Of a stretch of DNA of 35,691 bases, positions 12,443 through 35,691 are shown one piece after another. Source of the stretch: Bacteroidota bacterium. GTDB taxonomy: Bacteria; Bacteroidota; Bacteroidia; Bacteroidales; JABHKC01. The translations under genes were made by a program, and so were the position numbers. The first letter of the stretch is position 1, and each line of letters starts with the position of its first letter. The stretch covers positions 1 through 35,691 of the forward strand of contig JABHKC010000041.1 of NCBI GenBank assembly GCA_018692315.1. Direction: 5' to 3'. The notes beneath the pieces were generated by a model. That model was given only the letters and a program-made list of their open reading frames with translations. It had not been told where the DNA came from and searched no databases.

Positions 12443-13963
12443 TCAGCAAGAATAAATTGTTATAATAAAACTTGTGCCAACATTTTGTTCCGATTCTACT
12501 GCAATTTCAAATTTGTGAGCATCAATAATTTTTTTACAAATACTTATTCCTAAACCTGTGCCTTTTTCGCCGCCTGTTCCATCTGTACTTTTATCGAAAG
12601 TGTCTGAAAACAATTTCTTTCTTGCATGATCGGGCATTCCAACTCCTGTGTCGGTAAGTTTAATAATTGTTTGCTCTGGATTCTGAATTGCCGACAAACT
12701 GATTTTTCCACCCGCCGGAGTAAATTTCACTGCATTCCCAATCAAATTGTTCAAAACCTGGCTGAATAATGCTTCGTCAACATCTACAAAAATATCTTCG
12801 TCAACATCCATTTCGAACTTGATGTTTTTCTCCTGCATCTTCGAGGAAAGATTTTTTCGCGAAACATTTCCAATCTCAATTAGCTTGATTTTTTTAGGAT
12901 AAACTTGAAATTTTCCAAGTTCCAGATTAGACCAATGATAAAGTTTGTTGTTGTAATCTAACAGTCTTTTTAGTTCCTCATTTATGTCTATTATATCGGA
13001 TTGATGTGATTCGTCAATTTTATTAAAAAAAGTTTCGTCTTGGAGCAAAATATCTGAAAGAGCAACAACTGCTGCAATAGGCGAACGCAAATCGTGAGAT
13101 ACAATTGATACGAACTGGTCTTTAAACTTCAGAAGTTTTTTGAGTGCATTTTCAGCTTTAGCCAATTTATCGTAGGCAAGACTTTTTTCTCTTGCTTTCT
13201 GAATAAGTAATTGGCTTTCTTCAACTGAGGTACTTATTGATTGAATAAATAATAGTTTCTTATTGTTTACAACTGCTGCCATTGCCTGAAGATGAAAATC
13301 TTCGCCATCGGTATTTGATTCTGTCCATCTGTCTGACATGACTTTTTCCGAATCGCTTTCTTCCCAATGGTTTTCTGCCATAGGCAAAAATGTTTGAATA
13401 AATGGGAAATAGTCGGAAATAATAAACTCTACTCTATTAGTAATTGAATCGGAAAATAATTCGACAAACCATTTTGGGAAACTTCCCACAATTTTAAAAA
13501 CATCATCACTTATTCTTTCAAATGTAACTACTTCAAACAGGTTTAAAACGTCTATTGAAATAGATTTATCTAATTTTTTCGACGAACGGGCAAGCATCAA
13601 TTGGGTCTCATTTTGTTTTTGCAGAATATTTCGCAGTTTGTTAACATCCTGTGTTTTATCTAACAAAACTACCCAACAGTTCGTTTGGTCTTTTATTATG
13701 TGAATATCGGCATAAACTTCTTGCTCGGTTTGAATATTTGGCAATATTATCAAAGGAGTTTCGAGCGGAAAAATTCCATCGAGAAATGGTACTATTTGTT
13801 CTATTTGAACGTTTTTGCTAATGCTGAAAATTCCATAAATTTCTAAGTTTCCTTCCCATGAAATAACTTTACCTTCTTTAGACAATTTTATAAAAACAGG
13901 ATTTTGACATCCTATCAACAAGTCTTGTAAATATTTATCGATATTATTAGGTATATTTATCAC
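12443..13963 (-). CDS. Soluble sensor histidine kinase with two sensor domains
   Basis: A 506-residue cytoplasmic kinase with no membrane segment. Residues 1-115 form a PAS-like domain ('VFIKLSKEGKVISWEGNLEIYG ... CWVVLLDKT'). Residues ~135-275 form a second sensor domain shared with the upstream pseudo-kinase ('YFPFIQTFLPMAENHW', 'SDRWTES', 'LIQKAREKSLAYDKL'). The dimerisation/phospho-acceptor domain has 'FVSIVSHDLRSP' with H290. The ATPase domain shows the N box (N410 in 'NNLIGNAVKFTP'), G1 'DTGVGMP' (438-444) and G2 'KGTGLGIS' (467-474). All catalytic parts look intact. It lacks a receiver and probably passes phosphate to the hybrid kinase's receivers or to a regulator elsewhere. It is the last gene of the cluster, 142 nt after the pseudo-kinase, so it may also have its own promoter; I found no clear one. 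Confidence 0.9.
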   Translation of the reverse strand: MINIPNNIDKYLQDLLIGCQNPVFIKLSKEGKVISWEGNLEIYGIFSISKNVQIEQIVPFLDGIFPLETPLIILPNIQTEQEVYADIHIIKDQTNCWVVLLDKTQDVNKLRNILQKQNETQLMLARSSKKLDKSISIDVLNLFEVVTFERISDDVFKIVGSFPKWFVELFSDSITNRVEFIISDYFPFIQTFLPMAENHWEESDSEKVMSDRWTESNTDGEDFHLQAMAAVVNNKKLLFIQSISTSVEESQLLIQKAREKSLAYDKLAKAENALKKLLKFKDQFVSIVSHDLRSPIAAVVALSDILLQDETFFNKIDESHQSDIIDINEELKRLLDYNNKLYHWSNLELGKFQVYPKKIKLIEIGNVSRKNLSSKMQEKNIKFEMDVDEDIFVDVDEALFSQVLNNLIGNAVKFTPAGGKISLSAIQNPEQTIIKLTDTGVGMPDHARKKLFSDTFDKSTDGTGGEKGTGLGISICKKIIDAHKFEIAVESEQNVGTSFIITIYSC

Positions 13964-14105
13964 TGTTCTAATTTTAATTTAATCTAAATTATTTCATTCT
14001 GTGCAAATAAGGATATTGAATATTATTGATTTCCGTCAAACATTAAAAATCTATTCACAAACTTTTGATTTTCAAATATTTTTTAGCATCTAAGTTTTAA
14101 TTTTC

Positions 14106-14735
14106 TTAGTCTTCATCGAACCATATTATGTTGTTTTTGAGCAGGGATAATCTTTCAATCTCGTCAGCAAATTCGTCAAATAAGGTTTTGTCTTTAACTT
14201 TTGCTTTTAGTTCGTTCAAATTTGTAATGACAGCTTCCAACTCACTATAAACAATAGGAAAAACTTGTTTGTTGTAGTTAATATTAGTTTCGAGTTTACT
14301 GGTTACTTTTTTCAAACTTTCATATTTCAAACTTTTATTTCTAGCTTTTTGAATAAAGGTGTAATTCCCAATTATTTTTTCATTAATATTTTCAATTAAC
14401 AAATAATCATTGCCACTCATTTTCATAGCAAAAGCTCGTAGATAATAAACATTTTCATGCTTGTCTGATTCTAACCAAAGGTCTGAGCAGATACTTGATT
14501 CCAAATCATTTTCCCAAAAAAGGTAAGCAGTTTCCAAAAAACTTTCTAAAAATGGGAAAAACTTACTATAGTCAATATTTTTATCAAAATCAAAATCAAA
14601 ATCTAAATCATCTAGTATCTCCTTTAACCACAATGGAGTCTCATTTAATAATTTAAATTTATTTTGCTTAACTCTTAATAAAATTGCAAATTCCAATTTA
14701 GAAAATAGACTATATATGTCTGAATTATTTCCCAT
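14106..14735 (-). CDS. Pseudo-histidine kinase: sensor domain plus His-less dimerisation helix
   Basis: A 209-residue protein homologous to residues ~135-345 of the downstream kinase. Shared landmarks are 'KFFPFLESFLETAYLFWEND' against 'DYFPFIQTFLPMAENHWEES', 'CSDLWLES' against 'MSDRWTES', and 'FIQKARNKSLKYESL' against 'LIQKAREKSLAYDKL'. It continues into a region aligning with the kinase's DHp helices, but the acceptor motif 'IVSHDLRSP' reads 'IVYSELEAV', so the phospho-His is Ser164. It stops after 'NIIWFDED' where the kinase has 'KLYHWSNLE', with no ATPase domain. It therefore cannot autophosphorylate but could dimerise with, or titrate signals from, the real kinase. Residues 45-51 are a DFDFDFD run encoded by a 6-nt tandem repeat (~14584-14601). 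It starts 8 nt after the GTPase stop: operonic. Confidence 0.8.
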   Translation of the reverse strand: MGNNSDIYSLFSKLEFAILLRVKQNKFKLLNETPLWLKEILDDLDFDFDFDKNIDYSKFFPFLESFLETAYLFWENDLESSICSDLWLESDKHENVYYLRAFAMKMSGNDYLLIENINEKIIGNYTFIQKARNKSLKYESLKKVTSKLETNINYNKQVFPIVYSELEAVITNLNELKAKVKDKTLFDEFADEIERLSLLKNNIIWFDED

Positions 14736-14743
14736 TTCTTTAA

Positions 14744-15244
14744 TTACTGATTTTTCAATATATCTCTACTTAGTTCAAGGAAAGCCAATTCCACTGCTTC
14801 GCCGGTTTTTGCACTGGTAAAATAATATTTCCAACCTTTTTGTTTAATTTTTTCGATTATGTTATCGTCAATTTCCCATTCGTCTTTCATATCTACTTTG
14901 TTTATTAGCAAATAAAATGGGATTTTACCGACTGTAATATTTATCATTTGATTCAGATATTCGGCTACTTCGAGAGTGTTTTTCCGAGTGCCGTCAATTA
15001 CAAGAAAATAACCTGCCGAACCGACGAGGTATGATGATTGAACTTTCTGATAATCGTCTTCGCCATGAATATCCCAAAGTATCAAATCTAATTTGGTTCC
15101 ATCTATGTTTAATGATTTTTTGTCTATTTTTACTCCTATTGTGGTTAAATATTTTTCAGAGAAAATACTCTTAACAAATCTTTGCACCAAACTAGTTTTG
15201 CCGACTGCATATGCACCAATCATGCATATTTTCTTCTTAACCAT
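14744..15244 (-). CDS. Rab/Ras-like small GTPase
   Basis: A 166-residue single-domain GTPase. Motifs: P loop 'GAYAVGKTS' (10-18), switch I Thr in 'YLTTIGVKI' (T34/T35), Walker B/switch II 'WDIHGEDDY' (D58, G61), 'NKVD' (115-118) and 'TSAKTGE' (143-149). Spacing and the 'TTIGV' and 'WDIHG' motifs resemble eukaryotic Rab/Ras and the prokaryotic Ras-like group (which includes MglA), rather than Era/TrmE-type GTPases. The catalytic Gln of Ras (Q61) is Glu62 here, suggesting slow intrinsic hydrolysis or an altered partner-assisted mechanism. It has no C-terminal Cys or lipidation tail (ends DILKNQ), so membrane recruitment would need a partner, perhaps the adjacent OmpA-like membrane protein. It lies 9 nt after that gene and 8 nt before the pseudo-kinase: tightly operonic. 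Confidence 0.92.
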   Translation of the reverse strand: MVKKKICMIGAYAVGKTSLVQRFVKSIFSEKYLTTIGVKIDKKSLNIDGTKLDLILWDIHGEDDYQKVQSSYLVGSAGYFLVIDGTRKNTLEVAEYLNQMINITVGKIPFYLLINKVDMKDEWEIDDNIIEKIKQKGWKYYFTSAKTGEAVELAFLELSRDILKNQ

Positions 15245-15253
15245 AACTATTTA

Positions 15254-17029
15254 TTATTTATCTGATATTATTACTTTAAATGAAACTCTTCGGTTGAATC
15301 TTTTTGCTTTTTTCGTATGCCCTTTCATAAGTGGCTGAGACGAGCCCATACCATAAATGGTGAACATATATTCAGGCAAATTTCTGTCCAAAAATATTTC
15401 TAAAAATCCTTCGGCTCTAAGTTTGCTAAGCCATAAATTTCCGTCTTTATATCCTGTGTCATCAGTATGTCCTAAAATCTCAAGATGAACAGACTTTCCA
15501 TCGGCTTTTGCACTCTCTATCAATTTCCAAATATTGTCAATCAAATTGTCTATTTTGTCCGACTGTCTGCTGTTAGCTTCCGAATTTCCTAAATCGAAAC
15601 TAAAATTTTGTTCTTCAATTATAGTTTTCAGTTCCAGAATACTTTTGGAAGTTTTTGAAGCGATTTTTTTTACTCCAATACTAAGCTGTTCGGTATTGTA
15701 TGAATTAATTCCTGAAATTTGTGATGACTTTTTTTTCGATTTCTCAATCCAATCTGTCGGAGCTGATCCACTTGCTATTAGAATATCATTGTTTAGGTCG
15801 AGTTTTATTGTTTCCGGAGGGTCTAAAATCACTTTTGCCCTATACAAAACAAATTCCTTTGACAATGCTTGATAGATTTCCCAATTGAAAATTACTGAAC
15901 CGGAATCGAAATTGTGCTTTTGCATTAAAAGATAAGGATCAACGGACAGGAAATCTTTTAAGCCTGAAATATAATGTTTCCCGCCATGTTTTTCATGTTT
16001 TGTAATTACAATTCCCGGGGCGGATTCAAGCTCACTTATAAAATTTGACCACTGATAGTTGCTTCTTATTTTAAAAAACAAGAGTGTAAAAATTAAAACA
16101 GCCACAATTCCTAAAGCTACAAAAGGGGCATATGATTTTTTCTTTTTTTGTTTTTCGCGAACTTGTTCGAGCAAACAGGGTTCCAAAATATCTGAAGTGT
16201 CTTCAAGTGGCTCAGTATCACCTTCAAATGACTCTAATTCGCGAGCAAAATCTTTATGTAATTGCTCTTGTGTAGTTTCCAACAAAGTTCGCAAATCTTC
16301 CGGCGCATTTCCACGCACTACGGCAGCCAGTATTGCATATGGGCCTTCTTCTATCCAAACTGTCAGTTCTCCAACTTGAATAGTGTTTAGAGTCTCCTGG
16401 CTATCAACTTTGAACGAGTCGTGAACAAAATCTTGTATTGCTCTTAGCATTCCCGAAACCATGTCTCCATCTTGTGAGGCAAAACCCGATTTGTCAACCT
16501 GTTTTATTAATAGGCTAGTTTTTTTATGAATAAGAAAAATCTGTTCGACACGAAATAATATACCTTTGATCATTACAATTTCTGCAAATGATTTTCCGGT
16601 AATGGCGGCTTGTATTCTCCATTTGACACTATCGAATGACAGGCTTGATTCAAGTGTCTTATTGAACGATTGTATCATTTTCCTGATGGTTTCGGAAATA
16701 GATTTTCTTATTGCCGGACCCATAATTGGGAAAAGTGCATCGGCTAACGATTTTGGATTTTCTCGAACGTTTTTTTCCAAAATCTGTGTAACAATCGGCG
16801 ATAACGAATTTGTTAATGGTGAAGAATCATTTTTCGACAGATTGATTGCTTTTGGTAGAATTTTGCTTACATCATTTGCGAATAGGTTATCAGATGTATT
16901 TTCCTCATCACTATTGTCATTTTCTGCATCGACACCTATAATGAGCGAACGTAACTCTTCCCACTGCGAATTTGATATCGAGCTTTTGTTACTTTTTGAA
17001 CTATCAATATTTCTTATTGATTGATTCAT
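15254..17029 (-). CDS. Membrane protein: cytoplasmic roadblock/longin-like domain, one TM, periplasmic BON-like and OmpA-like domains
   Basis: 591 residues. There is no N-terminal signal peptide. Residues 1-150 are Ser/Asn-rich then helical. Residues ~156-265 ('GILFRVEQIFLIHKKTSLLIKQ ... MVSGMLRAIQDFVHDSF ... GELTVWIEEGPYAILAAVVRG') look like a roadblock/longin-type alpha-beta domain; this is by eye and unconfirmed. A Lys-rich stop (293-298) precedes one TM helix (~301-320). The periplasmic part has a BON-like segment (~405-440, 'DLNNDILIASGSAPTDWIEK') and an OmpA C-terminal domain (~465-588) with 'ILGHTDDTG' and 'RFNRRVSFKV', which should bind peptidoglycan. Its start codon overlaps the upstream coiled-coil gene's stop by one base (TAATG), indicating translational coupling. 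Roadblock proteins regulate small GTPases (MglB acts on MglA), so this protein may anchor or regulate the adjacent GTPase. Confidence 0.85.
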   Translation of the reverse strand: MNQSIRNIDSSKSNKSSISNSQWEELRSLIIGVDAENDNSDEENTSDNLFANDVSKILPKAINLSKNDSSPLTNSLSPIVTQILEKNVRENPKSLADALFPIMGPAIRKSISETIRKMIQSFNKTLESSLSFDSVKWRIQAAITGKSFAEIVMIKGILFRVEQIFLIHKKTSLLIKQVDKSGFASQDGDMVSGMLRAIQDFVHDSFKVDSQETLNTIQVGELTVWIEEGPYAILAAVVRGNAPEDLRTLLETTQEQLHKDFARELESFEGDTEPLEDTSDILEPCLLEQVREKQKKKKSYAPFVALGIVAVLIFTLLFFKIRSNYQWSNFISELESAPGIVITKHEKHGGKHYISGLKDFLSVDPYLLMQKHNFDSGSVIFNWEIYQALSKEFVLYRAKVILDPPETIKLDLNNDILIASGSAPTDWIEKSKKKSSQISGINSYNTEQLSIGVKKIASKTSKSILELKTIIEEQNFSFDLGNSEANSRQSDKIDNLIDNIWKLIESAKADGKSVHLEILGHTDDTGYKDGNLWLSKLRAEGFLEIFLDRNLPEYMFTIYGMGSSQPLMKGHTKKAKRFNRRVSFKVIISDK

Positions 17030-17589
17030 TAACTATCCTTTGTTTCCAGTTTTTTAGAAGTTTCTCCTCTCAATTGAAGTGCCATGTCGGTTAGGAGTGC
17101 AGCAAGATTCATTCTATCGGTTTTTTTGTCTCTGAGGTTATCTACTTCACTACTCACAACGTTTCTGATATCGGCACTTTGTTTTTGAATATCTTCTGAA
17201 AGACCTTTGAATTGTTCTAATAATTGTTGCCTAATTTCGCGTGTAGAATTGTGAGATTCTTCTTTGTGCTTGTTCAGTTTTGTTGAAAGCTTATCTACCT
17301 CAGTGCTTATCTTAGTTTCTTTGTCTTCTCTTTCTTCTGATAGGATATCTATTTTTGAATATATGTCTTTAATTTCATTTTTAACATAAACTTCTAATGA
17401 ATCGAACATTTTTTTTGTTTCGCTTCTAATTTCTTCAATTGCTATTTGATTTTTCTTTTCGATATCGGAAAAACGCTTTTCGAATTCATTTATATTATTG
17501 CCAAAAAGTATGTCTCTAATTTTGTCAACTTTTTCGTTATCGTTAATTGCAATATTGCTATTTGCAGGTTTTTTTTCTTCTTTTTTCAT
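17029..17589 (-). CDS. Cytoplasmic coiled-coil protein of the GTPase/OmpA cluster
   Basis: A 186-residue hydrophilic protein without signal peptide or TM. Residues 18-45 ('NEKVDKIRDILFGNNINEFEKRF') look like a conserved N-terminal motif. Residues ~36-155 have strong heptad patterning with many Lys/Glu, predicting a long coiled coil, and 'DKKTDRMNLAALLTDMALQL' (154-173) looks like a conserved terminal helix. No catalytic motif is seen. I cannot assign a family name. Its stop overlaps the OmpA-like gene's start by one base and it begins 16 nt after the hybrid kinase stop, so it is co-expressed with both; a scaffold or connector between kinase, GTPase and membrane protein is plausible inference. 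Confidence 0.75.
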   Translation of the reverse strand: MKKEEKKPANSNIAINDNEKVDKIRDILFGNNINEFEKRFSDIEKKNQIAIEEIRSETKKMFDSLEVYVKNEIKDIYSKIDILSEEREDKETKISTEVDKLSTKLNKHKEESHNSTREIRQQLLEQFKGLSEDIQKQSADIRNVVSSEVDNLRDKKTDRMNLAALLTDMALQLRGETSKKLETKDS

Positions 17590-17605
17590 TTTAAATTATT
17601 ATTTA

Positions 17606-20600
17606 TTAAACATATTTTTTTAGTCTTTCACTTAAATCATTTGGCTTGAAAGGTTTTGAAACTAGCTCGTCAAAACCGGCATCTAAATACACTTCGTCGT
17701 TGCCTTCCGTAGATTTCGCTGTTAAGGCTATTATTGGTATTCTTTTCCTGTTTTCTGTTCTTTCAAGCTCACGAATTATTTTTGTTGCCTCGATACCGTC
17801 CATTTCAGGCATCTGGATATCCATTAAAATAAAGTCGTATTTGTTTTCTTTAAATTTCTCTACACTAATTTTACCATTTGTTGCTTCGTCATACGAAAAT
17901 TTCATTTTCTTCAGAGCCAATCCACCCACTTTTAAATTTATACTATTATCGTCAACTAATAAAACATGAGCTTGATTGGCTGGATCTTTTTCTTGGCTTA
18001 TTATTTCGGATTTAGAGGATTTATCATCAAAATTTTCGGATAAAACTACAGGTTTTGAAATTTTCCTCATTTTTTTGATATCAGACAACTTCTTTTTCAG
18101 TAGAGTAAAATCTATTGGTTTATCTAATAAGGCATAATAACCTGCCAGCTTAAAGTCTTTTTCGCTTATTGTGGTTGAGGTATTTATCAAAATTAGTTTT
18201 GTGTCGCGAATGTATTTATTGCTCCTGATTGTTCGGGCAAAAATCATTCCATCTGCATCTGGCAAAACACTATCAACAATAGCTATATCAAACATTCTTT
18301 TTGAGATACCGGCTACGGTATTTAAAAGTTTAAATCCTTCTTCGGCAGAATTTGCTTCGGTTGGAACGCAACCCCATTCTGAAAGAGATGAAGTAATTAA
18401 TTTCCTGGAGTTTTCTCTTGGATCAACAACAAGAATTCTTAAACCTGTACAATCTACAGTTGACTTTTCAATTATTTTCGGTTCATTCGGATCAATTTCC
18501 AGTTCTGCTGTAAAAGTAAATGTTGAGCCACGATTTTCTTCACTTTCTACCACAATGTTTCCGTTCATCAATGAAATAAGTCTTTTCGACAAAACAAGTC
18601 CTAATCCCATTCCATCGTGATGACGCATGTCTGTATCATCTCCTCCTACATAAGCTTTAAACAGTTTGTCCATTGCAACTTTGGAAATTCCTACTCCGGT
18701 ATCCTTTACTTTTACTTTTATTTTAGCAATATTGTCGCTGATTTCGTCCAATTTTGCAGAAATTAGTATTTCGCCAAATTTGGTGAATTTCACAGCATTA
18801 GACATTAAATTTCTAATAATCTGCCCAAGTCGCAATTTATCGCCAATGACAGACTCCGGTATGGTTTTATCTATTTGAGTTTGAAGCCGTAATCCTTTTT
18901 CTTTTATTTCTTTATCGAAATTCGAAATAACATTGTTAATACATTTTGGAAGATTGAAAGGCGACTTTTCAAGATTAATATTATTGTCCTCAAGTTCAGA
19001 GACATCGAATATGTCTTTTAGTTTGAGGATTAATTCTTCTGATGAATTTTTAATAATTTCTGTGTATTCTTTCTGCTCTTCAGACTGTTCGGTGTTTTCC
19101 AAAAACTCTATAGAAGAAACCACTCCGTTCATTGGAGTACGAATTTCGTGAGACATTTTTGACAAAAACTGGGATTTGATTAGGTTCGCATTTTCTGCAG
19201 TAACTTTAGCTTTTAATAACTCCTCAGCTTGTTTTTTCTTAATTGAGACATCTTCTTTGGTTGCAATATAATTGACAATTTCTCCTGATTCGCCAAAAAT
19301 AGGGCTAATTACAGTATAATCCCAATATAGCAAATCGTCTTTCTTTTTGTTAAACAGCTCTCCGCTCCATGTTTTACCTTTCGAAATAGTATCCCATAGA
19401 TTTTTATATGTGCTATTGGTTACTTTTCCAGATTTTAAAATTCTTAGATTTTTACCAATTATTTCGTCCGGAGAATATCCTGTCATTTTTTCAAACATCG
19501 GATTAACATAATCTACATTTCCAGAAACATCGGTAATTATGATTGATACCGGGCTTTGCTCAACAGCATGAGATAGTTTTACAATTTTCTCTTCGGCTTG
19601 TTTCATGGCAGTCATATCTCTCGAAATTGATATTATTCCGAGAATTTCGCCATCAGGAGAATAAAACGGTGTTTTTAGAGCATCCAACAAGAGTCTTTGT
19701 CCATATGAATTTCTTTCCCAGTCTTTGTTTCTCCAAGGTCTGCCTGTGCTTAATATTTGCTTTTCCTTTTCAGTAAATACATCGGCTTTTTCTTTAGGAA
19801 ACAGATTATAATCTGTTTTTCCTTTTAGTTCATCTACACTTTTTCCTGAAAAAATTGAATACGACTTATTACAGCCTAAATATGTACCACCGTTGTCTTT
19901 ATATGAAATAAGATCGGGAATAGAATCTAATAAACTACTTAAAAATGCTTTTTCCTGAATTATAGTTTCTTCAATGTTATGTCTCTTTTTTATTTCATTA
20001 CGCAATAAAAAATTCGTGTCTCTAAGTTTTTTTGTATCAGAGTTATGCTTTTTAGTAAGGCTATCTTCATAGTTGTGATATCTGCTTTTTATCCAATAAG
20101 CAAAATATCCTAATCCGAAAACTAATACAATTAGGAAACCTATAATTCCATATAACATTGAATTATTGCCCCCTCCTTCTGTTTGAGGAACATCTTTTTG
20201 GTAGGAACGTACGTTTCGTGGATTTTTCTTTGTCTGTGATTTTGTTTTTTTTTGTTCCTGATTTTTTTGAGGTTCTTCTGAATATGTTTCTTCTTTGTTC
20301 GAGCTCGATTTTTTATATTTGATTCCTTGATTTATATTAAGATTAGTTTCGTTTGAAAGAGCATTAAATTCGTCTGCTTTTGTATAATCTCCTAAGTATG
20401 AGTATGAGTTTGATATATTTGCAGCTATTTTTTTTATATAATAATTGTCTCTATCAGAATTTGCTTGCTTCAATCCTTTTTTAAAATATGATAAAGCTTT
20501 TTCATGTTTTTTTTGCTTGACATACATTTCACCAAAGCTATTTAATAAGGCAGAATTCTCTATCCCCAATTTTGCAAACAAGCTTTCTGCTTCCTGATAG

Positions 20601-21031
20601 CAGCCCAGTGCCTCTGTATTCCAATTCCTTTGTAAATAAACATCGCCAATATTTGTCCAATTTATTGCTACCTCTGCTTTTTCATTAGCTTTCATGGCAG
20701 ATTTCATTGCACTATTGAAGTTCTGATTTGCTTTGTCGGGTTCTTTTTCTTTTAAAAAGATAAATCCCAATAGTTTATATGCTAAAGCTTCTTGCTTTGG
20801 GTTTGAAATTTCTTTTGCTAAAATTAATGCCTTCTGCCCATAGTCTCGTGATTTATCTAAATCAAAATGAATATATTGAGCAGCAAGTATATTTAACACT
20901 TCTGCTTTTTCATTTCCTCTCAAACTTTCGACAATATATTCTAAACTATCTATCGAAACTTCAGCTTTACTGTTTTGGAAAAAAAATATTGAGAATATAG
21001 TTAATAATACATATTTATTTATTATCTTCAT
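17606..21031 (-). CDS. Hybrid histidine kinase: TPR sensor, TM, two PAS, HisKA-HATPase, two receivers
   Basis: The ATG at 21031 is preferred over 21070: it starts a signal peptide (MKIINKYVLLTIFSIFF) and a promoter -7 box lies between the two. Numbering from 21070 (1154 residues): TPR-like repeats ~45-240 in the periplasm, a Lys/Glu-rich linker, TM ~305-326, coiled coil, PAS ~375-490, PAS ~497-610, HisKA with H641 in 'FLSKMSHEIRTPMN', HATPase with N757, 'DTGVGIS' (790-796) and 'GMGLGL' (820-825), receiver 1 (~877-1000) with D933 in 'IVDSVLPDADG', receiver 2 (~1034-1154) with D1084 in 'ILMDIQMPEMDG' and K1139. Both receivers keep the acceptor Asp. It senses a periplasmic cue, probably through the TPR region, and transfers phosphate internally. 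It is the first gene of the cluster; no DNA-binding domain is attached. Confidence 0.92.
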   Translation of the reverse strand: MKIINKYVLLTIFSIFFFQNSKAEVSIDSLEYIVESLRGNEKAEVLNILAAQYIHFDLDKSRDYGQKALILAKEISNPKQEALAYKLLGFIFLKEKEPDKANQNFNSAMKSAMKANEKAEVAINWTNIGDVYLQRNWNTEALGCYQEAESLFAKLGIENSALLNSFGEMYVKQKKHEKALSYFKKGLKQANSDRDNYYIKKIAANISNSYSYLGDYTKADEFNALSNETNLNINQGIKYKKSSSNKEETYSEEPQKNQEQKKTKSQTKKNPRNVRSYQKDVPQTEGGGNNSMLYGIIGFLIVLVFGLGYFAYWIKSRYHNYEDSLTKKHNSDTKKLRDTNFLLRNEIKKRHNIEETIIQEKAFLSSLLDSIPDLISYKDNGGTYLGCNKSYSIFSGKSVDELKGKTDYNLFPKEKADVFTEKEKQILSTGRPWRNKDWERNSYGQRLLLDALKTPFYSPDGEILGIISISRDMTAMKQAEEKIVKLSHAVEQSPVSIIITDVSGNVDYVNPMFEKMTGYSPDEIIGKNLRILKSGKVTNSTYKNLWDTISKGKTWSGELFNKKKDDLLYWDYTVISPIFGESGEIVNYIATKEDVSIKKKQAEELLKAKVTAENANLIKSQFLSKMSHEIRTPMNGVVSSIEFLENTEQSEEQKEYTEIIKNSSEELILKLKDIFDVSELEDNNINLEKSPFNLPKCINNVISNFDKEIKEKGLRLQTQIDKTIPESVIGDKLRLGQIIRNLMSNAVKFTKFGEILISAKLDEISDNIAKIKVKVKDTGVGISKVAMDKLFKAYVGGDDTDMRHHDGMGLGLVLSKRLISLMNGNIVVESEENRGSTFTFTAELEIDPNEPKIIEKSTVDCTGLRILVVDPRENSRKLITSSLSEWGCVPTEANSAEEGFKLLNTVAGISKRMFDIAIVDSVLPDADGMIFARTIRSNKYIRDTKLILINTSTTISEKDFKLAGYYALLDKPIDFTLLKKKLSDIKKMRKISKPVVLSENFDDKSSKSEIISQEKDPANQAHVLLVDDNSINLKVGGLALKKMKFSYDEATNGKISVEKFKENKYDFILMDIQMPEMDGIEATKIIRELERTENRKRIPIIALTAKSTEGNDEVYLDAGFDELVSKPFKPNDLSERLKKYV

Positions 21032-21054
21032 ACTAACCTTTTTAAAATTCATTT

Positions 21055-21086
21055 CAAAATTACTACTCATTTTTTGTATTCACAAT
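21055..21086 (-). promoter_or_regulatory. Putative promoter of the signalling cluster
   Basis: On the minus strand, ATTG at 21086-21083 (near -33 TTTG), a 20-nt spacer, then TAATTTTG at 21062-21055 (TAnnTTTG -7 box). The -7 box ends 23 nt upstream of the ATG at 21031. It lies downstream of the alternative ATG at 21070, supporting the shorter start for the hybrid kinase. Confidence 0.5.
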
Positions 21087-21119: not shown

Positions 21120-21153
21120 ATTGATTATTTTTTTTAACAAAAAAATAATCAAT
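21120..21153 (-). terminator. 15-bp A/T-rich hairpin after the ChaN-family gene
   Basis: Arms attgattattttttt (21120-21134) and aaaaaaataatcaat (21139-21153) are perfect reverse complements with loop taac, 16 nt beyond the ChaN-family gene stop. It separates that transcription unit from the signalling cluster. A-rich and T-rich arms could serve as an intrinsic terminator, though the stem has little GC. Confidence 0.5.
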
Positions 21154-28386: not shown

Positions 28387-28413
28387 GTATCAAATGAAAT
28401 CTTCGTAATTTTG
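28384..28413 (+). promoter_or_regulatory. Putative promoter of the giant adhesin gene
   Basis: TTTG at 28384-28387, an 18-nt spacer, then TAATTTTG at 28406-28413 (TAnnTTTG -7 box). The -33 element overlaps the T tract of the preceding terminator. The leader to the ATG at 28485 would be about 65 nt. Confidence 0.4.
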
Positions 28414-28484
28414 AATAAAATGAACTTGATTTATTGAAACATTCTGTTTTGTTGAAGTATGACAGATTTAAAATTGCAAAACAT

Positions 28485-31400
28485 ATGAGTAGGAATCTAC
28501 TTTTTCTAATATTTCTTGTATTAAGTAAGTTCGGTTTTTCGCAGACATACATTATGAATGTTGATTTCAGTACAGCTTCCGATACTATACCTCCAAGTGG
28601 CTGGACACAGAATCAGGTTCAGGGAATTAGTAGCGACCTTTGGCATTTCAACAATCCAGGAAATCAAACTATAAGTTATCCGTTTACTGGAAATTTTGCA
28701 ATTTTCGATAGTCAAAACTATTCATCATCGGGAGGAAACGAAATGGTAAGCCTGCAATCGCCTGCTTTCGACGCTTCTATTGGAAATAATGTTTTTCTAT
28801 TTTTCGACCAGATTTTTACCGGATTTGGCAGTGATACTGCACGGGTAGAGGTTTACGATGGTAATAGCTGGAATACTATTGCAGAATATCTAAACCCTAC
28901 ATCAGGTGTAGTTTCAGAAATGTTAGATATTTCGGCATATGCCGGAGGAGTTACGAATGCAGGTCTGAGATTCACATGGATTGGAAACGGCATGAATTTT
29001 TGGGCGATAGATAATATTAGTATATATTCTCCTCTGAGCTTAGATTTGGGATTGATTCATTTTCATAGCCCAACTATGCCGTTTTTGTCTGGTCCTAATG
29101 ATATAAGGGTTTCTATAAAAAACTTTGGTGCAAACACTATTACCAGTGCCACAATAAACTGGAAAGTAGATGGGATTTTGCAAACAACTTTTTCATGGAC
29201 AGGCAATTTGACATTTCTTGCTACTGATGACACAATTATTTTAGGTTCATATGATTTTACGTCAGGAGACGTAGTAGATATTCAAATTTGGGTCGAAAAT
29301 CCTAATTTGGGTTTCGATTCAAATTCGCTGAACGATACCATTTCAACTAGTATTGCTTCGAGTCTTTGCGGTAATTTCACAATTGGAGGTTCAAATCCGG
29401 ATTATTCCAGCTTTTCTGAGGCTGTTTATATATTAAACAATGCCGGTGTGAGTTGTCCAGTTCGGTTTTTGGTGCGCGATGGCGATTATTCAGAGCAAAT
29501 AGAAATTGGACAGATTGCAGGTGCAGATTCTATAAATACTGTTACTTTTATTAGCGAAAGCGAAGATAGTAGTTTGGTGTCATTACAATATCTGGAAAGC
29601 AACAATATTATAGACTACACTGTAAAACTTGATAATTCGAAATATGTATATTTTCAGCACATTGGTGTTAAACGTAACCCTGGAAATTTCCCTTTTCTTA
29701 TTCAGGAAAGCAAGCATATTTCAATTTCGAACTGTTTACTACTGGGCAATAACTCAATAAAAATTGAAGAGGGTTGTGAAAATATTGACATTCTGAACAA
29801 TCATTTCGAAGGAAACTATAGTAGGCGAATTTTTGTCAATGGAAATTCTGGCAATCTTGTGAAGCACATAAATGTCAGAAATAATATTCTGCCAAATTCT
29901 TCGGGCTATTGTATAGATTTCACAAATGCTAAATATGTTGAGTTTTCGGAAAATCAGATTAGTAATTTTTATCGGGGAATACAGGTGAAATATTCCGATA
30001 ATATTCTGATTAATAATAATATTCTGGAAAATGGCATCGATTTTGGCATTGATGTTTATACTAATCAGTTTCAGGATAGCATTTTTATTAATGGCAATAG
30101 AATATCAGGTATTTCAAATGCATACGGGATAAAGGTTCGTTGCAAAAACGTTCGTATTTTGAACAACTTTATTCATGTTGAAGGTATGGCGGCAAATAAT
30201 GGAATTTATGTTGGCAGCAGCAGCGATAGTTGCAAGATCAATTTCAATTCTATAAGCATAACAAGCGCAAATCTTGCCAGTAGTGCAATTTTTCTGGAAG
30301 ATGCTGAAAACCTCGACATTCGAAACAATATTTTTTCGAATTACGGTGGAGGATATGCTGCTATTATCAGCAATAATCCTCCTGATTTAATGATTGACCA
30401 TAACAATTACTTCAGCTCTGGTGTGCTAACATGGAAACTTGCTGGTGCAGACATCCTGTATCTTCCGGCATGGCAATCAGGAATTTCTGACGATGCAAAT
30501 TCATTAAATCAGAATCCATTTTATTCGGGCACTCACGACTTAAGCGTAAACCAGTCGTTGCTTGATGGAACAGGAATTGTTATCCCAGAAATTACATTTG
30601 ATATTGATTCTGTAATTCGCTCGAATCCACCCGATGTAGGAGCAAAAGAATTTGATCCTTGTGGTATTGATGCAGGTATAAACTTGGTGGGCGGAATTAC
30701 AAACCCTATAACTCCCGGATTGCAGAATATTGATGCAGAGCTACAAAATCAAGGCACTGCTACATTAACAAACTGTATAATAAACTGGAGTGTAAACGGA
30801 CAAACACAAACTCCATATTTTTGGAGTGGAAATCTTTTAAGCGCAGAAAATCAGATTATTCAGATTGGAACTTATATTTTTACGACTGGCTCGAATTATA
30901 TAATTTCTATTTGGACATCGCAGCCAAACAACCAAACAGATTGTAACAATTTGAACGATACAATCAATACTAACGATATGTCAACTCCTATGTGCGGAGA
31001 TTATACAATAGGTGGGCTAAACCCGGATTTTGCTAATTTTTCTGAAGCAGCTACTATTCTGAACAATGCGGGTATTAGTTGCCCTGTGCGATTTTTTGTT
31101 CGCGATGGAGTGTATTCAGAGCAAATAGAAATTGGACAAATTGAAGGAACTAATTCTACAAATACGGTTACTTTTATTAGCGAAAGCGAAGACAGCAGTT
31201 TGGTAACATTACAATATCTTCAGTACAATATTATTTTAGACTATACTGTAAAATTGAATAATGCAGAATATGTTTATTTTCAGCATCTTGGTGTGAAACG
31301 TAGCTATGGGGATAATCCTTTTATAATTAAAGAAAGTAATAATATTTCAGTTTTGAATTGCATGCTAAGTGGCGATATTTCTATAAAAATTGAATCGGAG

Positions 31401-34400
31401 AGTGAAAATATTGATATTAATAATAATTATTTTGAAGGAAACTATGATAAACGAATTTGTATAGTTGGAAGTGCTGGAAGTCTTAATAGAAAAATTGAAA
31501 TTCGACACAATATATTCCCCGCGTCAACAAATTATTGTATAGAAATATCATACGCAGAAAATGTAGAAATTTTGCAAAATCAGATAAGCAATTTCTATCA
31601 GGCAATAAAAATTGAGTACTGCGATAATGTTTTGGTCGGATACAATACTATCGAGAATAGTGAGAATTACTGTATTGAAATAAATTCTGACGTTTCGCAG
31701 GATAGCATCCAAATCATTGGGAATAGAATTTCGGGAATAATGAACTCTGATGGAATTAGAATCTTTTGCGAAAATGTAGAAATAATAAACAATTTCATTC
31801 ATATCAATGGATTAGCTGAAAATTATGGTGTCTATCTTAGCAGCTTAGCAAACAATTGCAAGCTATACCATAATGCCATAAGCGTAACAAGTTCAAACTC
31901 TGTGAGTGGGGCAGTATATCTTGAAGATGCTGAATATTTGGATATTCGTAACAATATTTTCACGAATTGTGGTGGAGGATATTCTGTAAAAGTTGAATAT
32001 AGTCCGCTAAATTTGATTATCGATTACAATAATTATTATTCATTTGGTGAAAATGCCTGGCAAATTGCTGATAGTTCTTTTCAGATATTGAGTGCGTGGC
32101 AGGCAGCAATAGGAGATGATGTAAATTCTCTAAACAAAAATCCTTTTTATGCTCTTTCGACTAATTTAAGTTCGAATCAAATTATGCTTGACGGTGCAGG
32201 CGTTTCCATTCCCGAAATCATAATAGATATTGATTCAATTATTCGTACAAATCCGCCAGATATTGGGGCAAAAGAATTTGCTCCTTGCGGAACAGATGCC
32301 GGAATAAATGCAATCGTTGGAATATCAAACCCTTTAAATCCCGGCATTCAAAATATTGATGTAGAGCTTCAAAATCAGGGAACCAGCACATTAACAACTT
32401 GCATTATTGAATGGAGTGTTAATGGATTAATGCAAGCTCCTTATAGCTGGACTGGGAGTCTTTTAAGTGCTCAAAATCAGATAGTTCAAATTGGATCCTA
32501 TAATTTTTCATATGGAGCAAATTATGTTATTTCAGTCTGGACCTCGCAAGCCAACAACCAAACCGATTGCAATAATTTTAACGATACTATCATCACACAC
32601 AATTTGTCAACTCCTTTGTGTGGCGATTATACTATCGGTGGACAAAATCCGGACTTTTCTAGTTTTTTGCAAGCTGTAACAATTTTAAATAATGCAGGAA
32701 TTAGTTGTCCTGTGAGATTTTTGGTGAGGGATGGAGTATATTCAGAACAAATAGAAATAGAAAAAATTGACGGAACAGATTCTATAAATACGGTAACTTT
32801 CGTTAGCGAAAGCGAAGATAGCAGCCTCGTAAGTTTGCAATATTTCCAGAGCAACAGCATATTAGATTTTACAGTTAAGCTCAGTAATTCGGAATATGTT
32901 TGTTTTCAGCATATTGGAATAAAACGAGACACAGGAAATTGCCCCTTTTTTATTGAGCAAAGCAATAATATTTCAATTTCAAATTGTGTGCTAAGTGGCA
33001 ATAATTCTGTGAAAATTGAATCAGGTAGTGAGCATATTGTAATATCGAACAACTATTTTGAAGAAAACTATAGCGACCTGATCTGTATTGAAGGTGGAAT
33101 TGGAGAAATGATTCAACATATTGAAATTCATAATAATGTGCTGCCCGGCTCATCGGGGAAAAGTATTGAGCTATCATATGTAAATAATGTTGAAATTTCT
33201 AACAATCATATAAACAATTTTGCTCAGGCAATAGATATTGAACACTCAAACAATGTTCTTATAGAATACAATACCATAGAAAATGGCTATGGTTTTGGCC
33301 TTGAAATATCGTCGAATTTTCCTCAGACTAACATGTTTATTGTAGGAAACAAAATTACAGGAGTTTCAAATGCCGATGGAATCAGAATTTTAGGTGAAAA
33401 TGTTCAAGTTGTGAACAATTTTATTCAAACCGAAGGAATAGCAGACAAAAGCGGAATATTTATAAGCGACAATTCAGATAATTGTAAACTATATTATAAT
33501 TCGATAAATGTTATAAGTACTAATTCGGTTAGTAGTGCTGTTTGCCTCGACAATGCTGAAAATATGGACATTAGAAACAATATTTTCTCGAACAGTGGCA
33601 ACGGATATTCTGCAATTCTGGAAAATATTCCAACAAATATTATTATTGATTACAATAACTATTATAGCTTTAGTGTAAATGGCTTTCAGATTTCAGGAAA
33701 CGATTATCAATTGCTTAACAGCTGGCAAACTGCAATAGGAAACGACGCAAATTCTATAAATATTAATCCTTTCTTTGAAACTATTTCAAACCTTCGGCCA
33801 TTTCAGCGAGAGCTGAACGGTGCCGGGATTACTATACCATCAATAATTTACGACATCGACAAAGAATTGCGCTATCAATCAGCTCCAGACATTGGTGCCG
33901 ATGAATTTATGGTAGATTTCGGAATTACTGATTTGTTAAGTCCAACACTTGATTGTTATTTGACAATGGCTGAAAATATTACTATCTATCTCAAACAATT
34001 TGGAGATATTCCATTCATCAATTTAATTGTTGCTTATCAAGTCAATGGTGGTCAGATTTCTGCAGAAACAATTCCAGGCAGCCTTGCAAACGATTATGCT
34101 TTTACTTTTTCGGGCTCTCAAAACTTATTGGCATATGATACTTATACTTTCAAAATATGGATAGTTAACTCTCTCGATGACAATATTAATAACGACACAC
34201 TTATTGCTGTTCGTCATAGTCATGTTCCTCCATATGTTGATTTTACTCACAATATAGTTTGTGAAGGAGATACTACTGACTTTAATTCGTTGTCAAGCGT
34301 ATCATCTGGATGGATTGAAGGATATCATTGGGATTTCGGAGATTTATCAACAAGTACTTTTCAACACCCACATCATATATTCGACTCATCAGGGTTTTAT

Positions 34401-35691
34401 GCTGTCACTTTTCAGGCATTAACCGAAGTAGGATGTTTTAGCGACACCACCGTAGATGTTCTGGTTTGGCCTACACCTACAGCCGATTTTTCATTCAATG
34501 ATATCTGTTTAGCCGATACTGCTCATTTTCAGAATTTGTCATCAATTTCGTATGGCTCAATTACTTATTTCTGGGATTTTGGCAACAACTCTTCTTCAAC
34601 AGAATTATCACCATCGCATTTTTATTCGGTGGTTGATACTTTTTCGGTTTCTTTAATTTCAGTATCAAACAATGCATGTTCTGATACAATAATACACAGC
34701 ATTATTGTGCATGAATTGCCAGTTTTAAGCTTACCAAATTTCGATACACTTTTTTGTGAAAATGATGCTCCTATGCAACTAATATCTTATCCAACTGGTG
34801 GGATATTCATCGGTAGCGGAATTGTTGAAGATACGCTTTACCCACCTTTGGCAAATATTGGACAAAATACAGTTACATACTCATATGCTGATATAAACGG
34901 CTGTTCCGCTACAATTTCAGACGATTTTACAATCTTGCCAGTACCTGAAATCAGTATAAATGGTATTGACAGCAACTATTGTATAACTGGTTCTTCAGAC
35001 ACAGTCATAATTGTGCCAGCTGGGGGAGTCTTGTCTGGTTCAGGAATAAATGGAGAAATCTTTTTTCCACCAGTGGCAGGAAATGGGAACCATACAATTA
35101 CATATACACATATTGTGTCAAATGGATGCATAGCAACGAGCCAGTTCACGACAATTGTTTCTGAACCAAATATTATGAATTTACAGTTTGATATTGATAG
35201 CATAAGCTGTTATGGCGAAACTGACGCAGCTATTAATCTTAGTGTGAATTTTTCAAATCAAAGCTATTCTGAGATATTATGGTCGAATGGAGCAACTGTT
35301 GAAGATATTTCAAATTTAGGAATTGGGAATTACTCACTTACTGTTACTGATAGTTTTGGTTGTAGAAGCTTCGACTACATTGAAATTACTCAGCCAAACC
35401 AACTTTTTATTTCCTTAATAGCTCAGGATGCAATTTGTTTTGCGGAAGCAAGCGGACAGATTTTTACAAATATTATTGGAGGGACACAACCTTATAATTT
35501 TCAATGGTCTGATGGTTCAACAGTGCAAAACCCTACCAACCTTATGGCTGCTACTTATTGGTTAGAACTTGTCGATGCTAATTTTTGCACGGAATATGAT
35601 TCTATCGAAATATTTGAAGGTGCGGAAATCCTTCTTAGTCCAACAATTGAAGATATCCTTTGTTTTGGTTTAGGAAATGGAAGTATCGACA
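28485..35691 (+). CDS. Giant secreted adhesin-like protein, C-terminus outside window
   Basis: The frame is open from ATG 28485 to the window end: 2402 codons, no stop seen. The signal peptide is MSRNLLFLIFLVLSKFGFS, with Gln20 as mature end. Domains: a choice-of-anchor J/MAM-like domain (~25-185, 'FSTASDTIPPSGWTQ ... FWAIDNISIY'); a CARDB-like Ig domain (~190-290); three tandem 542-residue units starting at Cys295, Cys837 and Cys1379, each a right-handed beta-helix followed by a CARDB-like domain, the third unit ending with a divergent one; PKD-like domains from ~1916 ('YHWDFGDLST', 'TYFWDFGNNSS'); further Ig-like segments; and SprB-like repeats from ~2227 ('YNFQWSDGSTVQNPTNLMAATYWLELVDANFC'). 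SprB repeats occur in the gliding adhesin SprB of Flavobacterium, exported by T9SS, so this is likely a surface adhesin. A C-terminal sorting domain is expected beyond the edge but not visible. Confidence 0.88.
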   Translation, partial: MSRNLLFLIFLVLSKFGFSQTYIMNVDFSTASDTIPPSGWTQNQVQGISSDLWHFNNPGNQTISYPFTGNFAIFDSQNYSSSGGNEMVSLQSPAFDASIGNNVFLFFDQIFTGFGSDTARVEVYDGNSWNTIAEYLNPTSGVVSEMLDISAYAGGVTNAGLRFTWIGNGMNFWAIDNISIYSPLSLDLGLIHFHSPTMPFLSGPNDIRVSIKNFGANTITSATINWKVDGILQTTFSWTGNLTFLATDDTIILGSYDFTSGDVVDIQIWVENPNLGFDSNSLNDTISTSIASSLCGNFTIGGSNPDYSSFSEAVYILNNAGVSCPVRFLVRDGDYSEQIEIGQIAGADSINTVTFISESEDSSLVSLQYLESNNIIDYTVKLDNSKYVYFQHIGVKRNPGNFPFLIQESKHISISNCLLLGNNSIKIEEGCENIDILNNHFEGNYSRRIFVNGNSGNLVKHINVRNNILPNSSGYCIDFTNAKYVEFSENQISNFYRGIQVKYSDNILINNNILENGIDFGIDVYTNQFQDSIFINGNRISGISNAYGIKVRCKNVRILNNFIHVEGMAANNGIYVGSSSDSCKINFNSISITSANLASSAIFLEDAENLDIRNNIFSNYGGGYAAIISNNPPDLMIDHNNYFSSGVLTWKLAGADILYLPAWQSGISDDANSLNQNPFYSGTHDLSVNQSLLDGTGIVIPEITFDIDSVIRSNPPDVGAKEFDPCGIDAGINLVGGITNPITPGLQNIDAELQNQGTATLTNCIINWSVNGQTQTPYFWSGNLLSAENQIIQIGTYIFTTGSNYIISIWTSQPNNQTDCNNLNDTINTNDMSTPMCGDYTIGGLNPDFANFSEAATILNNAGISCPVRFFVRDGVYSEQIEIGQIEGTNSTNTVTFISESEDSSLVTLQYLQYNIILDYTVKLNNAEYVYFQHLGVKRSYGDNPFIIKESNNISVLNCMLSGDISIKIESESENIDINNNYFEGNYDKRICIVGSAGSLNRKIEIRHNIFPASTNYCIEISYAENVEILQNQISNFYQAIKIEYCDNVLVGYNTIENSENYCIEINSDVSQDSIQIIGNRISGIMNSDGIRIFCENVEIINNFIHINGLAENYGVYLSSLANNCKLYHNAISVTSSNSVSGAVYLEDAEYLDIRNNIFTNCGGGYSVKVEYSPLNLIIDYNNYYSFGENAWQIADSSFQILSAWQAAIGDDVNSLNKNPFYALSTNLSSNQIMLDGAGVSIPEIIIDIDSIIRTNPPDIGAKEFAPCGTDAGINAIVGISNPLNPGIQNIDVELQNQGTSTLTTCIIEWSVNGLMQAPYSWTGSLLSAQNQIVQIGSYNFSYGANYVISVWTSQANNQTDCNNFNDTIITHNLSTPLCGDYTIGGQNPDFSSFLQAVTILNNAGISCPVRFLVRDGVYSEQIEIEKIDGTDSINTVTFVSESEDSSLVSLQYFQSNSILDFTVKLSNSEYVCFQHIGIKRDTGNCPFFIEQSNNISISNCVLSGNNSVKIESGSEHIVISNNYFEENYSDLICIEGGIGEMIQHIEIHNNVLPGSSGKSIELSYVNNVEISNNHINNFAQAIDIEHSNNVLIEYNTIENGYGFGLEISSNFPQTNMFIVGNKITGVSNADGIRILGENVQVVNNFIQTEGIADKSGIFISDNSDNCKLYYNSINVISTNSVSSAVCLDNAENMDIRNNIFSNSGNGYSAILENIPTNIIIDYNNYYSFSVNGFQISGNDYQLLNSWQTAIGNDANSININPFFETISNLRPFQRELNGAGITIPSIIYDIDKELRYQSAPDIGADEFMVDFGITDLLSPTLDCYLTMAENITIYLKQFGDIPFINLIVAYQVNGGQISAETIPGSLANDYAFTFSGSQNLLAYDTYTFKIWIVNSLDDNINNDTLIAVRHSHVPPYVDFTHNIVCEGDTTDFNSLSSVSSGWIEGYHWDFGDLSTSTFQHPHHIFDSSGFYAVTFQALTEVGCFSDTTVDVLVWPTPTADFSFNDICLADTAHFQNLSSISYGSITYFWDFGNNSSSTELSPSHFYSVVDTFSVSLISVSNNACSDTIIHSIIVHELPVLSLPNFDTLFCENDAPMQLISYPTGGIFIGSGIVEDTLYPPLANIGQNTVTYSYADINGCSATISDDFTILPVPEISINGIDSNYCITGSSDTVIIVPAGGVLSGSGINGEIFFPPVAGNGNHTITYTHIVSNGCIATSQFTTIVSEPNIMNLQFDIDSISCYGETDAAINLSVNFSNQSYSEILWSNGATVEDISNLGIGNYSLTVTDSFGCRSFDYIEITQPNQLFISLIAQDAICFAEASGQIFTNIIGGTQPYNFQWSDGSTVQNPTNLMAATYWLELVDANFCTEYDSIEIFEGAEILLSPTIEDILCFGLGNGSID
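29367..33908 (+). repeat. Three tandem 1626-bp intragenic repeats in the adhesin gene
   Basis: Units begin at equivalent Cys codons at 29367, 30993 and 32619, exactly 1626 bp (542 codons) apart. Each starts with C-G-[ND]-[FY]-T-I-G-G-x-N-P-D and later has 'YSEQIEIxxI', 'SESEDSSLV', 'NNIFSN/TN', and the closing 'NPPD[VI]GAKEF'. The third unit ends at about 33908 with PDIGADEF and lacks the usual CARDB-like tail. Units are clearly homologous but diverged at both nucleotide and protein level, so this is an old duplication. Confidence 0.85.

Follow-up and report, generated by a model that had tools for sequence, protein, structure and literature searches.

Group 1 Rup GTPases, to which the Rab, Ran, Ras and Rho proteins are very similar, have lost the glutamine of the G3 motif (Wuichet and Sogaard-Andersen 2014, PMC4316618). 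They are encoded beside a coiled-coil protein, a domain of unknown function that often carries a transmembrane (TM) segment and an OmpA domain, and an output protein with an invariant N-terminal glutamine; typical outputs are GGDEF/EAL fusions and histidine kinases (section 18, PMC4316618). As of 2014, no Rup member had been experimentally characterised (PMC4316618), and no experimental work on Rup GTPases is recognisable by title among the open-access papers listed. Here we analyse a cluster of six genes in a stretch of 35,691 nucleotides from a Bacteroidota bacterium of the order Bacteroidales (contig JABHKC010000041.1; hereafter the window). All six open reading frames (ORFs) lie on the - strand (12443-21070) with intergenic gaps of 16, -1, 9, 8 and 142 nt, as the original prediction, made from the letters alone, had described them. 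To the published description we add the prediction of a longin domain in the OmpA protein, the adaptor logic of two output modules, which we call X and RBD, and the separation of a conserved core from local genes.

By the motifs of its GTPase and by its neighbourhood, the cluster is a Group 1 Rup system. Four of its genes match the 2014 description (PMC4316618): the GTPase without the G3 Gln, the coiled-coil protein, the protein with a domain of unknown function, a TM segment and OmpA, and the output with an N-terminal invariant Gln. The pseudo-kinase, the kinase that fuses X and RBD, and the hybrid kinase go beyond that description, and the terms 'longin', 'adenylate cyclase', 'HD-GYP' and 'PAS domain' are absent from the main text of the paper. 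A new kind of locus is ruled out, because the core was already described there; the original prediction arrived at the neighbourhood anew from the letters.

Other systems are alike in part. As in the window, an actinobacterial conservon is an operon in which a Ras-like GTPase stands together with a kinase and a roadblock protein (PMC13343842; PMC4316618). Unlike in the window, the GTPase of conservons is of the MglA family and their roadblock protein of the MglB type. To our knowledge, conservons have no OmpA anchor. The TM-OmpA partner and the lack of a Robl_LC7 match in the six genes (Pfam, E ≤ 0.1), by which no MglB homologue is recognisable from sequence, argue against a conservon set CvnA-CvnB-CvnC-CvnD, of which CvnA and CvnC were not sought by model. 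MglA and MglB of Myxococcus are likewise a small GTPase and its roadblock/longin-group partner and have a two-component link (PMC4316618), whereas the partner in the window is membrane-anchored with OmpA and longin-like by prediction, and the G3 Asp of the GTPase is kept. The eukaryotic longin regulators of Rabs (TRAPP, Mon1-Ccz1, DENN and Fuzzy-Inturned) resemble the window in that a Rab-like GTPase stands beside a longin, here a predicted one (PMC3521125, PMC10933270). The window differs from them in being bacterial, in its TM-OmpA anchor and in that no sequence match was found.

The GTPase and its membrane-anchored partner

The Rab-like small GTPase (14744-15244, - strand; 166 aa, within the 240-aa limit) belongs to the Ras family (Pfam, E 2.8e-31). 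Its best sequence matches in the PDB are Rab18 and Rab21 (E ~3e-21), and a Thorarchaeal Rab matches at 8.8e-20. Motifs G1 to G5 read GAYAVGKTS, TTIG, WDIHGED, NKVD and TSAK. The position of the catalytic Gln in G3 is occupied by Glu. Among 89 aligned GTPases, this position is E in 75, D in 5, T in 3, A in 2, S in 2, G in 1 and Q in 1, and the G3 Asp is retained in all 89. At another locus, a second GTPase domain of the same type lies within a 688-aa ORF (L076:12908-14974, -), near a core without X or RBD.

The membrane protein (15254-17029, - strand; 591 aa) overlaps the coiled-coil gene by one nucleotide and ends in an OmpA peptidoglycan-binding domain (15290-15559, - strand; residues 491-580; Pfam PF00691, E 4.9e-8). 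Its one strong TM helix (16067-16138, - strand; hydropathy 2.69 at residue 303) is Lys-rich on the N-terminal side. Therefore, the first ~300 residues, including the predicted longin domain (16154-16561, - strand; residues 157-292, model residues 132-267), are probably cytoplasmic.

A 280-residue fragment of the protein was modelled with AlphaFold2 from an alignment of 30 rows. The model has a mean pLDDT of 73.8 and a pTM of 0.55; both ends are poor and residues 131-260 are good, with a pLDDT of 73-97 in blocks of ten. Strands are predicted at residues 135-143, 149-154, 191-194, 197-203 and 207-214, and helices at 163-181, 219-241 and 248-262, with an additional helix of lower confidence (123-131) ahead of the first strand. 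The predicted topology follows the longin order b1-b2-a1-b3-b4-b5-a2-a3, in which the third helix is C-terminal. The top Foldseek matches are TRAPP, AP sigma subunits and Mon1-Ccz1, and MglB ranks tenth (E 9.1e-4). In VIA-align, the Z score is 13.4 for both Sec22b (121 residues, 2.5 A) and VAMP7 (119 residues, 2.4 A), followed by Ykt6 (13.0), Fuzzy (12.8), a Lokiarchaeal longin (12.0) and Mon1-Ccz1 (11.6). On the roadblock side, MglB reaches 10.5 (106 residues) and an Asgard roadblock protein 10.4.

Longins have an extra C-terminal helix in place of the N-terminal helix of roadblock proteins (PMC10933270). Sec22b, VAMP7 and Ykt6 align over 119-121 residues up to residue 265-266, and the MglB alignments end at residue 242. 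A roadblock fold was considered for the cytosolic domain and fits less well than longin, because its Z scores are lower and MglB stops before the C-terminal helix 248-262. We thus predict a longin fold, known from eukaryotic regulators of Rabs, for the cytosolic domain of the OmpA protein. The original prediction had called it roadblock-like, which was close, roadblock being the sister fold, although the predicted fold lies nearer longin.

Output modules X and RBD

The soluble histidine kinase (12443-13963, - strand; 506 aa, GTG start) carries an X module (13586-13963, - strand; residues 1-126; E 6.3e-32) and an RBD module (13157-13531, - strand; residues 145-269; E 1e-39), followed by HisKA and HATPase_c (Pfam). 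The modules were recognised with our own hidden Markov models (HMMs). X spans ~129 aa and RBD ~126 aa, and RBD occurs a second time in the window, at residues 16-143 of the pseudo-kinase. In the rest of the window genome, a search for RBD gave nothing beyond these two modules. Each module has an invariant Gln, found in 71 of the 71 RBD rows that have a residue there (3 of 74 rows are gapped) and in 19 of 19 aligned X modules. The RBD model is PAS-like with a best Z of 8.2, a level at which chance matches occur; X was judged PAS-like by eye. Homology between X and RBD was rejected (hhalign probability 1.8%, E 0.027). The two are treated as separate modules because hhalign aligns them only weakly.

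In relatives, the modules are joined to a range of enzymes. X is found in 45 ORFs shorter than 180 aa, mostly directly downstream of the GTPase and ahead of an RBD kinase. Thirteen of 17 longer X proteins without RBD were scanned with Pfam, giving Guanylate_cyc in 10, PAS only in 2 and nothing in 1, and 18 RBD proteins were scanned besides the pseudo-kinase, giving histidine-kinase domains in 13, HD_5 (HD-GYP type) in 3, a sigma-54 activator with HTH_8 in 1 and SpoIIE in 1; most of these proteins were chosen for unusual length, so the counts are not frequencies. X and RBD are held by a single ORF in the window and in three other loci (L066, L119 and L140). At one further locus, an ORF upstream of the coiled-coil gene fuses RBD to a SpoIIE-type phosphatase (L064:6877-8142, +), and an X ORF and the GTPase lie on the opposite strand. 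Two findings from the sequences are new: the outputs carry two types of module, which both contain an invariant Gln and are linked to kinases, class III cyclases, HD-GYP proteins, SpoIIE or sigma-54 activators, and the soluble kinase of the window fuses both types. That the effectors attached to X and RBD are exchanged is consistent with a role of the modules in reading the GTPase.

Sigma-54 activators bear on the type of output. One (L136) carries an RBD module, and two others (L058 and L059) have no recognised module. The claim that no DNA-binding output is encoded holds for the window; in relatives, sigma-54 activators with a helix-turn-helix (HTH) domain are present (L136, L058, L059). Since these activators hold the place of the output, a non-transcriptional output, as originally proposed, is not a property of the system.

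The same effectors bear on which side of the GTPase the kinases act. One alternative comes close to the original prediction and to the conservon model: the longin-OmpA protein would be a passive platform or a GTPase-activating protein (GAP), the latter as MglB is for MglA, and the kinases would act upstream and control the GTPase, itself an output on envelope or polarity. In its favour, MglB is one of the folds matched (Z 10.5), the window encodes two kinases but lacks a separate response regulator, and the 2014 paper compares these systems with conservons, for which it suggests a GTPase output (PMC4316618). However, the modules of relatives are fused to terminal effectors (class III cyclase, HD-GYP, SpoIIE, sigma-54 activator), which fits outputs driven by the GTPase better than sensors of it. 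We regard this alternative as unlikely.

Alternatively, the longin-OmpA protein, the coiled-coil protein and the GTPase could mainly build or position an envelope structure, such as a motility or polarity apparatus, with the kinase modules as accessories. In 92 of 98 family members a TM segment comes after the longin region, which would suit such a role, and MglA provides a precedent (PMC4316618). Among the 169 ORFs directly downstream of the GTPase, however, the one large family is X/RBD (124 ORFs; ORFs farther out, where a conserved motility gene could lie, were not systematically annotated), and an HD-GYP-type enzyme replaces the kinase in three loci. An envelope structure as the main function is therefore improbable, and we favour a GTPase that drives its outputs.

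Conservation of the core and genes local to the window

As the query for distribution, we used the cytosolic part of the OmpA protein. It matches 13 of 296 genomes of the phylum, and an alignment of the domain matches 4 of 295 genomes of the order, the own genome being included in both counts. A GTDB-wide scan confirmed 446 stretches, with records from Cyanobacteria, Acidobacteria, Deltaproteobacteria, Calditrichia, Verrucomicrobia, Coatesbacteria, Delongbacteria and others. The best 80 of the 446, mostly cyanobacteria, were searched with HMMs built from these loci (CC, GTP, X, RBD, OMPAN), counting presence anywhere in a stretch of ≤19 kb. The GTPase is present in 78 of them and the coiled-coil protein in 76; X occurs in 60 and RBD in 67, and 74 loci have at least one of the two modules. 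The six loci without X and RBD include a 3.4-kb contig (L062) and two loci with an upstream hybrid kinase (L103 and L115). Related neighbourhoods of GTPase, OmpA protein and kinase in other phyla, which the original prediction had only supposed, are thus present, and their conservation in the 80 scan loci supports its view of these genes as one module, a view already published (PMC4316618).

The coiled-coil protein (17029-17589, - strand; 186 aa) matches no Pfam family above cut-off, and its label rests on the sequence read by eye, on homology and on the 2014 description. Coiled-coil protein, OmpA protein and GTPase follow in that order on the same strand in 77 of 94 loci (window included), so the order of the cluster goes beyond chance. 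Among 72,556 plasmid records (tblastn), there are five matches, four of them in the N-terminal part (three rhizobial, one Nostoc). One Mesorhizobium plasmid encodes, in a row, the coiled-coil protein (annotated as hypothetical), an 'OmpA family protein', a 'Rab family GTPase' and an adenylate/guanylate cyclase that bears an X module. In the Scytonema genome that holds locus L130, the GTPase search gives one match, 40% identical to the cyanobacterial query.

Within the phylum, the GTPase profile (E ≤ 1e-15, a limit picked to exclude other small GTPases) and the OmpA-protein query match the same 13 of 296 genomes, one of which (G294) has two copies of each. RBD is found in 9 of 296 genomes, all inside these 13. 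The alignments used (A9 and A5) include rows from the phylum draw, so that 9 of the 13 GTPase matches and 6 of the 9 RBD matches arise partly by construction; the GTPase matches in G053, G074, G171 and G291 and the absence of matches elsewhere are independent of it. The draw of 296 genomes was made three times, and the handles shown agree, with most non-matching genomes unlisted. In one genus (G053, G074 and G171), separate contigs hold the coiled coil-OmpA pair and the GTPase-X-RBD kinase set (L055/L157, L056/L156 and L057/L155). All parts are kept there without close linkage, which argues for a functional unit. Loss of the GTPase beside L055-L057 was considered and is ruled out, as the gene sits on another contig.

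The GTPase and OmpA-protein trees agree (r 0.81 over 42 non-cyanobacterial loci, a value reached in 0 of 2000 permutations). In a tree of the concatenated domains, the window joins L140, then L148-L150, then L066 (supports 0.84, 0.96 and 0.91). The three relatives from the order, L148-L150, keep the core: L148 has an X ORF overlapping an RBD kinase, L149 an RBD kinase with X undetected, and L150 neither. By these comparisons of sequence, the core consists of the coiled-coil protein, the longin-OmpA protein, the GTPase and a module-bearing output, and is conserved across phyla.

The six genes are not a co-conserved set, as had been proposed: neither a second RBD gene nor a hybrid kinase upstream of the coiled-coil gene occurs in any of the three order relatives. 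In L150, a hybrid-kinase-like gene lies on the opposite strand beyond the GTPase, at the other end. The pseudo-kinase (14106-14735, - strand; 209 aa) has no Pfam family above cut-off and consists of the RBD module and a degenerate DHp-like helical region. It aligns with residues 138-328 of the soluble kinase. The phospho-acceptor motif SHDL is changed to YSEL, replacing His by Ser, and the ATPase domain is missing, so the name first given to it is apt; the Gln of the module and a conserved Arg are retained. Two consecutive RBD genes are found in the window only (94 loci examined). Short RBD ORFs in L077 and L137 resemble broken kinase genes.

The hybrid kinase (17606-21070, - strand; 1154 aa) lies 16 nt from the coiled-coil gene and comprises TPR, PAS, PAS, HisKA, HATPase_c and two receiver domains (Pfam). 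Its N-terminus resembles a signal peptide by eye, and hydropathy gives a strong TM segment (best 19-mer at 309). In 82 other loci the gene directly upstream of the coiled-coil gene could be called, and in 2 of them it encodes a hybrid kinase. Both are acidobacterial (L103:6305-8278 and L115:3645-5789) and encode a PAS-HK-REC-Hpt hybrid kinase that overlaps the coiled-coil gene, with no X or RBD at the locus. A kinase in this position is therefore rare and not unique, and it may feed the core from the other side.

We thus regard the pseudo-kinase and the upstream hybrid kinase as probable local additions to the core. They might even take no part in it, if the pseudo-kinase were a duplicate in decay and the hybrid kinase a neighbour unrelated to the system; only four genes (coiled coil, longin-OmpA, GTPase and soluble kinase) would then work together. 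Their absence from the three order relatives fits this, as do the GC content of the pseudo-kinase (27.1%, the lowest of eight genes compared) and an AT-rich inverted repeat (TTGATTATTTTTT...AAAATAATCAA; 21121-21152, - strand) between a ChaN-like gene and the hybrid kinase. Yet the pseudo-kinase ORF is intact, lies 8 nt from the GTPase gene and keeps the module's Gln and Arg, and a hybrid kinase overlaps the coiled-coil gene in the two acidobacterial loci. We think it quite possible, if short of probable, that only the four genes cooperate; this would be compatible with the other readings. The inverted repeat may be an upstream transcription end, giving the hybrid kinase its own start. Promoter and terminator scans gave signals no better than shuffles.

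Elsewhere in the window, a very long repeat protein that looks secreted (28434-35690, + strand; more than 2400 aa) runs off the end. We take it to be a protein of beta-helix-like and SprB-like repeats, perhaps a Bacteroidota surface adhesin. A search for tRNAs in the window and one for Rfam families at 28400-35691 gave no match.

Proposed mechanism and significance

We consider it probable, with moderate confidence, that Group 1 Rup signalling uses a Rab-longin switch at the inner membrane to gate exchangeable outputs, and we infer the mechanism as follows. A longin domain on a TM-OmpA protein beside a Rab-like GTPase is best read as the membrane regulator of that GTPase. Tied to peptidoglycan in the periplasm, the longin-OmpA protein would dock the GTPase at the inner membrane and control its nucleotide state; the likeliest role is that of an exchange factor (GEF), which longin proteins have for Rabs. 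The input would be the state of the wall or the membrane. The GTP-bound GTPase would bind the X and RBD modules and set kinase activity via the exit helix. With their invariant Gln, the modules may then complete the GTPase active site in trans, as proposed in 2014 (PMC4316618), and hydrolysis would reset the switch. A Gln supplied in trans from X or RBD is attractive because the GTPase keeps its other motifs and not the G3 Gln.

For the window, this would mean that the GTPase sets the soluble kinase, whose response regulator is encoded outside the cluster unless the receivers of the hybrid kinase serve. The pseudo-kinase could be a brake, either binding the GTPase as a competitor or acting as a dimer partner of the soluble kinase, and the hybrid kinase could be a second, locally recruited sensor. 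The full proposal, that a wall-anchored longin is the exchange factor of a Rab-like GTPase in many phyla and that two effector modules read the GTP form, supply Gln in trans and connect to many kinds of output enzyme, is put forward tentatively and as rather unlikely.

Several observations weigh against the Rab-longin switch. The longin fold is predicted from one AlphaFold2 model (fragment pTM 0.55), and a fold alone cannot separate a GEF from a GAP or a scaffold. No longin or roadblock family is among the Pfam matches listed (25 of 35 families, 30 members, E ≤ 1) or in the two PDB sequence-profile matches of the domain. Because no sequence search linked the domain to longins, we use longin for a predicted fold and not for descent. 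The agreement between the two trees is also expected from common descent. In L049, L050, L052 and L053, the half with GTPase and output is divergent from the OmpA half; therefore, the core is not always one operon. In L130 (Scytonema), no GTPase adjoins the coiled-coil and OmpA genes. Seven of the 13 loci of the phylum draw have no recognisable X or RBD gene at the locus: three have X/RBD on another contig, L058 and L059 have a sigma-54 activator, L061 has an HK-REC protein, and L060 was outside the Pfam scan. In L061 (7079-10315, -), which also has the GTPase, the longin-type protein is 283 aa long, too short for OmpA, and has no clear TM segment. Wall tethering is therefore not universal, and the anchor seems dispensable.

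With a longin partner, the regulation of Group 1 Rup GTPases can be framed as a concrete hypothesis, and the trans-glutamine idea becomes testable. The presence of kinases, cyclases, phosphodiesterases, a phosphatase and sigma-54 activators on the same modules suggests an adaptor that lets the GTPase drive many enzymes. The longin partner also bears on the origin of the Rab-longin pairing. Longins have been proposed to derive from prokaryotic roadblock GAPs (PMC3521125), and the RB/longin families are thought to be of archaeal origin (PMC10933270). 'Longin/Roadblock' has been tabulated as present in bacteria with the two not split (PMC4917890), which weighs against full novelty; the open-access papers searched contain none of the expressions 'bacterial longin', 'prokaryotic longin' or 'longin domains in bacteria'. 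If the full proposal is true, the Rab-longin pairing of eukaryotic membrane traffic would have a bacterial counterpart outside Asgard archaea.

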